Origin: an uncultured Clostridia bacterium
Lineage (GTDB): Bacteria > Bacillota > Clostridia > Oscillospirales > Ruminococcaceae
Assembly (NCBI GenBank): GCA_947589035.1
Contig: CANPYZ010000025.1
Span: forward strand, 1-41,013
Direction: 5' to 3'
DNA length: 41,013 nucleotides
In this document: positions 10,882-33,504 of the stretch, one piece after another
Position numbering within the stretch: position 1 is the first letter of the stretch
How the letters are laid out: every line of letters starts with the position of its first letter
The notes under the pieces: model-generated
What the model was told of the DNA's origin: nothing
Database searches by the model: none
Seen by the model: the letters and a program-made list of their open reading frames with translations, nothing else
Program-made: the position numbers and the translations under genes

Positions 10882-10963
10882 TGGGAGAGGATGGATTCGA
10901 ACCATCGAAGCACGAAGCAACAGATTTACAGTCTGCCCCCTTTGGCCACTCGGGAACTCTCCC
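10882..10963 (-). tRNA. tRNA-Tyr (anticodon GTA)
   Basis: A class II tRNA with a long variable arm, about 82 nt. The acceptor stem GGGAGAG pairs with CTCTCCC, the anticodon arm reads CAGACTGTAAATCTG, and the T-loop GGTTCGAATCC is present. CCA is not encoded. It is second in a two-tRNA transcript. Confidence 0.97.
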
Positions 10964-10976
10964 TTATCATCAATGG

Positions 10977-11049
10977 AGCTGGTGGACGGACTCGAACCCC
11001 CGACCTGCTGATTACAAATCAGCTGCTCTACCAACTGAGCTACACCAGC
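10977..11049 (-). tRNA. tRNA-Thr (anticodon TGT)
   Basis: A 73-nt tRNA. The acceptor stem GCTGGTG pairs with CACCAGC, the anticodon arm reads CTGATTTGTAATCAG, and the T-loop GGTTCGAGTCC is present. CCA is not encoded. Confidence 0.97.
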
Positions 11050-18297: not shown

Positions 18298-18606
18298 TTA
18301 ATCTCTTGATGTGTCGTAATAACGCCGTTCGTCCGGATAGGCATAGTTGCCCGATTCTACCGCAAGCTTTTCCATGTAACGCCCGATGTCGTCAGAAGCA
18401 ATTAATTCCGCAAGTTCTTCATTCTCGGCGGAAAGTACTTCAATATTTTCCTCAAGCTGTGCAAGTTCTTCTTTTTTCGCCACAATGGAATTTTGTACGG
18501 TGATAATCGACACTGTGCAGAATATGGCAAACATTGCCAACGCTGCACTAATCAGCAAACGGAACACAACGGGTTGTTTTTCCGTGCTGGATTTTTTGCT
18601 TGTCAT
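18298..18606 (-). CDS. divIC: Cell-division protein of the FtsB/DivIC family
   Basis: A 102-aa bitopic membrane protein. It has a short basic cytoplasmic N-terminus, one membrane segment (about residues 15-36, FRLLISAALAMFAIFC) and an extracytoplasmic coiled coil (about 38-70, KKEELAQLEENIEVLSAEN). It ends with the DDIGRYMEKLAVESG motif typical of the family. It acts in the divisome with FtsL and DivIB, and in Bacillus it is needed for septation including the sporulation septum. GGGGGCG precedes the ATG. A structured RNA gene lies immediately upstream on the same strand and may read through into it. Confidence 0.92.
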   Translation of the reverse strand: MTSKKSSTEKQPVVFRLLISAALAMFAIFCTVSIITVQNSIVAKKEELAQLEENIEVLSAENEELAELIASDDIGRYMEKLAVESGNYAYPDERRYYDTSRD

Positions 18607-18650
18607 TCTCTACGCCCCCTATGGGAAATAGTTAGTTATTATTTATTATG

Positions 18651-18918
18651 TTAAGAAAAACATTTAATATTTTATTAAAAACGCTTTTCTTTATTGTTCA
18701 CTAAAGCTTAACGCTATAGTTACTACAAATGGGTGTAACACGCACCCTCTATCCCATTGAATTGGGACTGCTTTATGATAATTTTAAGATAGGCATTTAA
18801 ACATTGCCTTGGGCGAGGTCTCCATGTTGCCTTGCATATTTTACGCACCAAAGGGGCGGTGTTTCAGCCATCTTCCTAATGCAACCCGCAATACGCAGTT
18901 ATCATGGTTTCGCTTTAC
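18651..18918 (-). ncRNA. Structured noncoding RNA, copy A (unassigned family)
   Basis: About 268 nt, occupying the yabQ-divIC gap. It is homologous to copy B at 32176-32396: both begin AAAGCGAAACCA and share long identical blocks (GGGTGCGTGTTACACCC; TAAAATATGCAAGGCAA). Shared helices in copy A coordinates are: ATGATAA/TTATCAT (18899-18905 with 18775-18781); hairpin CTGCG..TGCGG; AAGAT/ATCTT (18870-18874 with 18786-18790); CACC/GGTG; GGGTG/CACCC; and TAAC/GTTA (18719-18722 with 18709-18712). The last and the AAGAT helix show compensatory changes against copy B. Copy A carries an extra hairpin of about 25-30 nt. The 3' end is a long AAGAAAAGCG hairpin at 18653-18691. No open reading frame is plausible. 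It does not fold like the 6S rod, tmRNA, RNase P or SRP RNA. A raiA-motif RNA is possible but untested. Confidence 0.82.
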
Positions 18919-18924
18919 AGATTT

Positions 18925-18953
18925 ATTTTACCATATTTTTGGTAAAATGTCAA
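18925..18953 (-). promoter_or_regulatory. Proximal promoter of structured RNA A, overlapped by a palindrome
   Basis: Minus-strand TTGACA (18948-18953), 17-bp spacer, TAAAAT (18925-18930). A 9-bp perfect inverted repeat with a 6-base centre, ATTTTACCA / TGGTAAAAT (18925-18948), spans the -10 and the whole spacer. It looks like a repressor operator, or a hairpin in transcripts from the distal promoter. Confidence 0.8.
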
Positions 18954-18985: not shown

Positions 18986-19014
18986 ATCATACACCTTAAA
19001 GCGCATTCTTGCAA
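18986..19014 (-). promoter_or_regulatory. Possible distal promoter of structured RNA A
   Basis: Minus-strand TTGCAA (19009-19014), 17-bp spacer, TATGAT (18986-18991), between the yabQ stop and the proximal promoter. Confidence 0.6.
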
Positions 19015-32139: not shown

Positions 32140-32169
32140 ATTGACGAAATCCTCAATATCTTGTATAAT
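32140..32169 (+). promoter_or_regulatory. Promoter of structured RNA B
   Basis: TTGACG at about 32140, spacer of about 17 bp, TATAAT (32164-32169). The region from 31989 to here is AT-rich and holds nothing else I can support. Confidence 0.85.
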
Positions 32170-32175
32170 ATAAAC

Positions 32176-32396
32176 AAAGCGAAACCACGATAACTGCATA
32201 TTGCAGGTTGTGTCAAGAAGTTGGCTGATAGCACCCGCCTTTGGTGTGTAAAATATGCAAGGCAATGTGACAACTTCGCTTTATCATCAAACAGTCCTAC
32301 TCCAATGGGCAGGGTGCGTGTTACACCCCTTTGCCGTTGCTATGGCGCAAGCTGTGGTGCGCAATAAAGAAAAGCATTTTTCAAGTTTTTCTTAAC
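32176..32396 (+). ncRNA. Structured noncoding RNA, copy B (unassigned family)
   Basis: About 221 nt, homologous to copy A at 18651-18918. Helices seen: GATAA/TTATC (32189-32193 with 32281-32285), enclosing hairpin CTGCA-TAT-TGCAG (32194-32206) and GAAGTTG/CAACTTC (32217-32223 with 32271-32277); hairpin CACC/GGTG (32232-32246); hairpin GGGTG/CACCC with loop CGTGTTA (32312-32328); and hairpin TTGC-TATGGC-GCAA (32337-32350). The 3' end is an AAGAAAA/TTTTCTT hairpin (32367-32393). Compensatory differences from copy A include TTGC/GCAA against TAAC/GTTA. No coding potential is seen. It lies upstream of the SCP2-like gene on the same strand, so a cis role is not excluded, but the terminal hairpin and the paralogue argue for a trans-acting or free RNA. 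Confidence 0.85.
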
Positions 32397-32481
32397 ATAT
32401 AAATTTATCCTCAATAATATAATTCATCCTGCAATATTAGCATTCAGCTTGCTGAAACAAAAAAAGAAAGGTGAACACGAA

Positions 32482-33018
32482 ATGACTTACCATGAATTAG
32501 TTGATAAAGTAAGAACTGCTTTAGTGGTCAAGGCAGACGCTTCCAAAGTGAAAGAGCATATCGCCGTACAGGTGAATGTGACTGGTGAATCTGAAGGAGC
32601 GTTCTATATTGAAATCAAAGATGGCGTTTTGTCTGTAGAACCGTTTGATTACAATGACCGTGATTTTCTGATTACTTGCGACGGTGCGGAAATTCTTGCC
32701 GTTGTTCAGGGAAAGAAAAGCATTGAAGAAGCTTACAAAGAAGGCACTGTCAAGGTAGAAGGCGATTTGACGAAAGCCATTAAATTAGGCGGTATCATTC
32801 CTAAGGCAAAGAAAACAACTAAAAAAGATAAAAAAGCAGATACTGCTGAAGAAACTCCTGCACCAGCGAAAAAAAGAACCAGAAAGACAAAAGCTGCTGC
32901 TGAAGTAACGGATTCCCCTGAAGAAGGTCAAATGTCTCTCACTGCTGAACCTGAAGAAAAACCAGCAGAAAAACCTGTCAGAAAAAGAAGAAGCAAAAAA
33001 ACAGATGCCGATTCCTAA
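32482..33018 (+). CDS. SCP2-like sterol-carrier-fold protein with basic tail
   Basis: 178 aa from ATG 32482, which has AAAGGTGA; the upstream in-frame start at 32449 has no site. Residues about 1-105 resemble the SCP2 fold (EGAFYIEIKDGVLSVEPFDY, FLITCDGAEILAVVQGKKS, GTVKVEGDLTKAIKLGGII), a small hydrophobic-ligand-binding domain. The remainder is a Lys/Glu/Ala low-complexity tail with AKKRTRKTKAAAE and RKRRSKKTDADS, which could bind nucleic acid or polyphosphate. The ligand is unknown. The tail is an uncommon addition to SCP2 proteins. Confidence 0.82.
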   Translation: MTYHELVDKVRTALVVKADASKVKEHIAVQVNVTGESEGAFYIEIKDGVLSVEPFDYNDRDFLITCDGAEILAVVQGKKSIEEAYKEGTVKVEGDLTKAIKLGGIIPKAKKTTKKDKKADTAEETPAPAKKRTRKTKAAAEVTDSPEEGQMSLTAEPEEKPAEKPVRKRRSKKTDADS

Positions 33019-33379: not shown

Positions 33380-33504
33380 TTCGGAATATAGGTGTGTGGG
33401 CCCTGTGCAATGTTTCTCCGTGAACCATGTCAGGCGTGGAAGCGAGCAGCATTAAGCGGATTGTTTCATGTGCCGCAGCAAGCCTGCACACCTATGTTCC
33501 GAAA
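33380..33504 (+). ncRNA. ffs: Signal recognition particle RNA (small bacterial type)
   Basis: About 125 nt. The ends pair over about 15 bp (TTCGGAA-x-ATAGGTGTG with CACACCTAT-x-TTCCGAA). The conserved Ffh-binding helix 8 is present: GTCAGG at 33429-33434 and GGAAGCGAGCAGC at 33438-33450. A run of T after 33504 acts as terminator. No Alu domain is visible, so this is the short form. Lying directly before dnaX-ybaB-recR is the classic Firmicute arrangement. Confidence 0.94.

Follow-up and report, generated by a model that had tools for sequence, protein, structure and literature searches.

Two RNA elements of probable IS607 descent in a Ruminococcaceae genome are candidate stand-alone TnpB guide-RNA genes with an undescribed, covarying 5′ domain

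The TnpB proteins of IS607 transposons are RNA-guided DNA endonucleases, and their guide RNA (reRNA) has a scaffold held by pseudoknots and a guide of about 20 nt (PMC11061315). TnpB is reported to process its own mRNA into the guide RNA (PMC10278001), so that nuclease and guide travel together. One structured guide RNA of IS607 TnpBs, RAGATH-18, occurs mostly in Firmicutes, and 36% of its examples do not adjoin TnpB (PMC11061315). In this study, we revisited two structured regions in a 41,013-nt stretch of DNA (the window), which is contig 25 of the genome of an uncultured Clostridia bacterium, here called G000. We suggest, with a probability of roughly 0.7, that both regions, copies A and B, are non-autonomous IS607-descended elements that carry a candidate stand-alone, probably trans-acting TnpB guide-RNA gene with an undescribed 5′ domain. 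The copies and their parts are as follows.

32176..32398, + strand: copy B, candidate stand-alone RNA element from its start AAAGCG to its right end TTAACAT (alignment with A and relatives)
18648..18916, − strand: copy A, candidate stand-alone RNA element from its start AAAGCG (18916) to its right end TTAACAT (18648) (alignment with B and relatives)
32179..32279, + strand: 5′ domain of B, two nested helices and a pseudoknot (covariation); model match 32180-32273 (R1 76.0 bits, R2 69.8 bits)
18813..18913, − strand: 5′ domain of A; model match 18912-18819 (R1 79.5 bits, R2 77.4 bits)
32293..32398, + strand: 3′ half of B, with a scaffold resembling a TnpB guide RNA and a right end of IS607 type (similarity to tnpB 3′ ends)
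18648..18769, − strand: 3′ half of A, with a scaffold resembling a TnpB guide RNA, the final ~20 codons of tnpB and a right end of IS607 type (similarity to tnpB 3′ ends)

As had been described, A and B lie on opposite strands 13 kb apart, can be aligned from AAAGCGAAACCA to the 3′ hairpin and TTAACAT, and have the same loop CGTGTTA; a blastn search with B as query against its own genome gives 70% identity to A (E 2e-28). Their folds are more stable than those of most shuffled sequences, though not extremely so (z −1.8 and 8/200 shuffles as stable for B; z −2.3 and 5/200 for A). The pair does not, as first thought, make up a two-copy family, since partial copies of the 3′ half also occur at four other places in G000 (contigs 44, 1, 3 and 34), all at tnpB genes or their remnants, along with two end fragments. 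The statement that the regions encode no protein holds for a functional protein; the 3′ half of A, however, can still be read as the last ~20 codons of TnpB and matches a TnpB C-terminus at 75-76% over 20-21 aa.

Neither copy matched any of 4227 Rfam 15 families at the gathering score. A permissive search (E up to 5) returned FasX, STnc470, mir-7360, IMES-4, OrzO-P and rncO, far below their gathering scores, and in the homologous loci tested against Rfam nothing fell on the RNA, the only matches being RT-2 and tRNAs away from it. The raiA motif, which we take to be a family represented in Rfam, had been the best guess for these RNAs and is unsupported because A and B have no Rfam 15 match. The other option then offered, an undescribed class, fits the 5′ half; the 3′ half belongs to an established type, the guide-RNA-forming end of a TnpB element. 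We found no description of stand-alone TnpB guide RNAs with such a 5′ domain in the open-licence literature, and the accessible part of PMC11870625 contains nothing on them. As far as Rfam 15 and this literature show, the stand-alone arrangement with a shared covarying 5′ domain across TnpB lineages is undescribed. Elsewhere in the window, Rfam places a bacterial small SRP RNA directly upstream of dnaX (33394-33492, + strand) and two tandem tRNA genes (10882-11049, − strand).

The nature of the 3′ half is indicated by its relatives. On contigs 3 and 44 of G000 the corresponding sequence starts within the last ~20 codons of tnpB and continues through the stop codon to the hairpin and the element end. 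In G015, which belongs to the genus of G000, an IS607 element encodes TnpA (NF033518, E 1.6e-55) and TnpB (NF040570, E 5e-56) and has the same 3′ sequence. Since it lies inside and after IS607-type tnpB genes in both genomes, its sequence and position are those of a TnpB guide RNA; by this comparison the 3′ half is the guide-RNA (omegaRNA/reRNA) end of TnpB elements, and the 3′ hairpin noted earlier belongs to the transposon right end. As in an omegaRNA or reRNA, the scaffold is homologous to a tnpB 3′ end and terminates at the transposon right end; a position within or beside tnpB was not found in the loci examined (48 loci; 87 sequences). When the 3′ halves of 11 RNAs were compared with six TnpB ends, the best-scoring end was that of the RNA's own lineage in 10. 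Own-lineage scores were 74-76 for A, 30-36 for B, 95-110 for G012, 24 for Butyrivibrio, 91-114 for G760, 96-102 for G099 and 66 for G157_L098, and no other-lineage score exceeded 36. Three of these results count against the guide reading: the Butyrivibrio margin is small (24 vs 17 and 13), B reaches just 30-36, and the exception, G157_L094 (own score 11 vs 20 for the best other lineage), does not fit any of the TnpB ends compared. The 3′ partner thus resembles the local TnpB end in five lineages, IS607 as well as IS200/IS605, and the five TnpBs compared are 24-46% identical to one another where BLAST aligns them. The end of one further RNA, L113, resembles by eye the sequence that follows tnpB in another genome (L142/L165).

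The 5′ domain spans about 95 nt and consists of a 7-bp helix around an 8-bp hairpin, the loop of which can pair just behind the outer helix. The original prediction of a structured RNA family is upheld here by both homologues and covariation. The covarying helices are TGYRTAT/ATATRCA and the hairpin after it, with 255 of 255 cells paired in 17 sequences, in a MAFFT alignment for which the structure was named by the analyst; the covariation score was reached by 0/500 shuffles and by no slid version of the structure, the number of cells paired likewise by 0/500 shuffles, and the count of pairs changed on both sides by 9/500. In wider alignments the same two helices are paired in 98.9% of 824 cells (57 matches, 55 distinct rows, with both-side changes at 10 of 15 pairs) and in 98.9% of 555 cells (37 distinct rows), counts that lean towards the structure of model R1 because model R2 was built from matches fitted to it. 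The covariation score was reached by 0/500 shuffles in both; in the 55-row alignment the number of cells paired was likewise reached by 0/500, and the count of both-side changes by 8/500. The pseudoknot was examined in an alignment-free test of 36 distinct sequences: 20 of them can form 4 bp or more (0/1000 reshuffles), 32 can form 3 bp or more (reached by 2/1000) and the remaining four reach only 2 bp, and the pairing persists where both partners have changed. When the columns are fixed, pairs form in 96.8% of 93 cells, but covariation is absent.

The helices that had been named as conserved by pairing are only partly the right ones. CTGCA/TGCAG is paired in 48.8% of 84 cells (17 sequences), and none of its pairs shows a change of both partners; AAGTTG/CAACTT does not hold in the copies from G012 and G030, nor, on the same alignment, does TTGC/GCAA. 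A structure calculated by RNAalifold from four sequences was mixed and was set aside: it has the hairpin at columns 35-41/70-76, which larger alignments confirmed, and misses TGYRTAT/ATATRCA, a helix among the longest in a scan of 16 sequences.

A separate observation concerns the tnpB 3′ end in G099 (L145/L157/L163), in which the codons G-A-Y-N-I-L read GGAGCGTACAATATACTGAAG in L145, near in sequence to the 5′-domain core GTGCGTAAAATATACAAGG, and the stretch stands in the same place as that core, before AAGTATC. Of the tnpB genes compared, that of G099 is close to the core and the others are not, and model R2 finds nothing there. The likeness is perhaps a trace of the origin of the domain, or perhaps chance.

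The 5′ domain is sparse across Bacillota and is found on some viral contigs. A pattern made from its best-conserved stretch gave 10 matches in named genomes, six of them the RNA (two uncultured Ruminococcus MAGs, two Butyrivibrio and two Lachnospiraceae MAGs), and one of two matched viral stretches was the RNA. Pattern matches L027, L033, L035 and L037 looked chance-like by eye and were discarded; L034 and L037 were not recovered by R2. With the models, the RNA was found in 5/38 genomes of the genus, in 8/391 genomes of the class sample, the window's own genome included (11 copies in G157), and in 10/398 of the phylum sample, again counting that genome (10 copies in G760, 5 in G617 and 3 in G670). 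Viral contigs contributed eight stretches on seven contigs, all with an R2 E value of 7e-15 or better. Even in the weakest matches, L114 and L105 (~38 bits), the structure is still visible by eye. Searches of B against plasmids and phages, and of the viral stretch L036 against phages, gave no match. On the L036 contig (IMG/VR 3300011008_000423) the RNA lies between lysin-like and serine-recombinase-like genes, and an RT-2 RNA is present at 557-778.

A TnpB or TnpA gene adjoining the RNA was not found by tblastn in 48 loci or in 87 sequences, the latter partly overlapping and most extending ~1.5 kb from the match. The 87 sequences were searched with 15 'TnpB' queries, three of which (L132, L133 and L137) look like ORFs from the neighbourhood, while several more are almost identical to one another; queries from IS607 TnpBs were applied to the 48 loci only. 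All that was found were C-terminal TnpB remnants within the RNA, in the Ruminococcus copies and in L087, L088, L093 and L105, and a motif scan gave one zinc-ribbon-like match, in L094. Conversely, R2 with filters off gave nothing credible at the 15 TnpB loci searched (best E 1.6). The 5′ domain, then, is shown to occur in elements that lack tnpB, and none was found at the tnpB loci examined. The RNA-bearing genomes nevertheless have TnpB elsewhere, with matches in 20 of 21 at E 1e-10 (17 above the cut-off); G085, which has the RNA and no TnpB match, counts against the guide reading. In the class sample, TnpB was found in 6/7 RNA-bearing vs 17/92 RNA-negative genomes (Fisher p 0.0005), counts that are not independent since they include the window genome and related species. 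G000 itself has 24 TnpB matches, fragments included, and one 415-aa tnpB with the same 3′ end.

The sites at which A and B are inserted have the following features.

32141..32169, + strand: host promoter TTGACG-17-TATAAT before B, conserved in relatives without B
32482..33018, + strand: SCP2-domain gene downstream of B, flanking and outside the element (Pfam SCP2, E 2e-9)
18925..18953, − strand: element-borne promoter of A, TTGACA-17-TAAAAT, like an IS607 left end
18986..19014, − strand: host promoter TTGCAA-17-TATGAT, with A inserted just behind its −10 box
18298..18606, − strand: divIC-like gene downstream of A, flanking (Pfam DivIC, E 5e-6, 26.8 bits; cut-off 28.9 bits)

Locus A (yabQ-divIC-S1; Pfam) is syntenic in 29 of 29 relatives' loci, none of which has the RNA. 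The host promoter TATAAT is followed by AATAAAATAAC in 7 of 9 aligned relatives; in the window, the element separates the TATAAT part from the AATAAAATAAC part and has an IS607-like left end and its own promoter. At locus B (starch synthase gene, SCP2, dnaX) the starch synthase gene is kept in 26 of 29 relatives' loci, again with the RNA in 0/29, and the intergenic gap measures 559 bp in the window vs 339-385 bp in relatives. All 10 aligned relatives keep the promoter before B. In the window, the RNA begins directly behind the −10 box of this promoter; B has no recognisable IS607 left end, which counts against our main reading. Each copy does have a promoter of the TTGAC type with a 17-nt spacer and 11 of 12 consensus bases, as had been claimed, but that of B is the host's own. 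Judged by these comparisons, B appears to use the host promoter, and A brings its own. An RNA-based insertion route for B, suggested by its start at the RNA 5′ end, is not needed; we infer that B can be derived from an A-like insertion by loss of the stretch between two TATAAT boxes. A terminator scan called none at the 3′ ends of A and B, with a rule that is blind to AT-rich stems, and one terminator-like hairpin lies within A. Read-through into the genes downstream of both copies is possible.

On the Butyrivibrio plasmid pCY360, from B. proteoclasticus B316, the element is ~330 bp long, has sharp ends and is present in 14 full copies, the others being 85-95% identical to the query copy; its left end also starts autonomous elements in Butyrivibrio sp. 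FCS014 that encode a Y1 transposase (Pfam Y1_Tnp, E 6e-37) and TnpB. By an incomplete gene table, 13 of these 14 copies lie outside listed genes or overlap a gene end by at most 5 nt, and the fourteenth reaches 72 nt into the start of a 279-nt hypothetical gene. Six of the copies have their right end no more than 5 nt from the 3′ (stop) end of a gene on the other strand (L167-L170), as if stop codons were favoured for insertion, the right end supplying a new stop. In G760, nine of 10 copies have the right end, eight the left end (one a variant) and seven both. The elements have ends common to autonomous elements and no transposase, as non-autonomous insertion sequences of the MITE/PATE type do, except for the left end of B: the right end is common to autonomous elements in both A and B, and an IS607-like left end was found in A, L020 and L032 (0/200 shuffles; upstream of A, this holds for each of three left ends). 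Some copies deserve separate mention. Upstream of the RNA in L096 (G157) are, by eye, the apparent first codons of an IS200-like transposase, as if tnpA were being lost. Two decayed copies, L022 and L023 (G030 and G031), stand before similar secreted-protein genes and are probably one old insertion common to two species. A cas12a gene lies ~1.3 kb from one RNA copy on pCY360 (336669-340394, L038), probably by coincidence.

These observations suggest a mechanism. Transcription would start near AAAGCG. A guide RNA made without tnpB mRNA would need a promoter and a front end, which the element or host promoter and the 5′ domain may supply; the domain would replace the tnpB reading frame as leader and give the RNA a folded, defined front. 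TnpB from copies elsewhere in the genome would bind the 3′ scaffold in trans, the bases just past the right end would serve as guide, and the complex would cut insertion-free alleles and so help to keep or spread the insertion, with the DNA itself moved by the TnpA of an autonomous relative. The likeliest job of the 5′ domain, and the least certain step, would be to make a guide RNA stable, or help to load it, when it is not excised from tnpB mRNA. More tentatively, and at somewhat less than even odds, the 5′ domain may be an independent RNA module absent from Rfam 15, coupled to the local scaffold by non-autonomous transposons from five or more TnpB lineages. It would then be a general device by which a guide normally cut from tnpB mRNA becomes a free-standing, trans-acting guide gene, and it might parallel the separate guide RNAs used by CRISPR systems.

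The most serious alternative takes A and B for decayed remnants of transposons that now have no function; the 5′ domain would work elsewhere and be debris here, in two 5′ leaders. The insertions are not common to relatives, the left end of B is lost and decaying copies exist in the genus (G030 and G031), all of which would fit; both A and B, however, retain the covarying helices and a good promoter, and we consider this reading unlikely. Considerably less probable still is a domestication of the two copies as leader RNAs that control divIC and the SCP2-dnaX locus, either in cis or in the manner of TldR guides. Their position, each between a host promoter and its gene on the same strand, would suit such a role, as would the lack of a called terminator at the 3′ ends, although the rule is blind to AT-rich stems and a terminator-like hairpin lies inside A. 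Against it, A and B are unique to this genome among the loci examined, and no nuclease-dead TnpB was identified beside either copy.

That the conserved fold is part of a self-splicing RNA in an IStron-like element is very improbable. In Firmicutes, IStrons combine RNA modules with IS605 and IS607 elements (PMC4227781), but A, B and the homologous loci tested have no group I or group II intron match in Rfam, and 13 of 14 pCY360 copies are essentially extragenic by the incomplete gene table, as opposed to 118 of 202 IStrons that are intragenic (PMC4227781). A housekeeping RNA of the host that has nothing to do with transposons, raiA for example, could account for a large multibranched fold with promoters, and is scarcely tenable given the missing Rfam match, the presence in only 5/38 genomes of the genus and the mobile-element ends. 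We retain the reading of A and B as candidate stand-alone guide-RNA genes. It accounts for repeated intergenic elements such as the 14 full pCY360 copies. If it is true, the guide part would travel without a nuclease gene in sparse, widespread elements of Bacillota, with the same 5′ domain whichever TnpB lineage gave the 3′ part. How a guide RNA becomes free-standing is a directly testable question here, and the work offers a clearly covarying RNA family outside Rfam 15.

Among known systems, omegaRNA and reRNA are the nearest, as the 3′ halves of A and B overlap a tnpB 3′ end, stop at the transposon right end and keep their hairpins in homologues; A and B differ in being putative separate genes with a promoter, no adjoining tnpB and an extra conserved 5′ domain. 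RAGATH-18 is likewise a structured guide RNA of IS607 TnpB that is partly found away from TnpB, whereas A, B and their homologues have no Rfam match and the 5′ domain occurs on IS605-type ends too. MITE/PATE-type relatives of IS200/IS605 elements are also short and multicopy with sharp ends common to autonomous elements, but a conserved, putatively promoter-driven RNA is carried here, and the Ruminococcus copies have IS607-type ends. IStrons, finally, show an RNA module repeatedly joined to IS605 and IS607 elements (PMC4227781), as the 5′ domain is; they differ from the present elements, which have no group I intron match and whose pCY360 copies are not intragenic.
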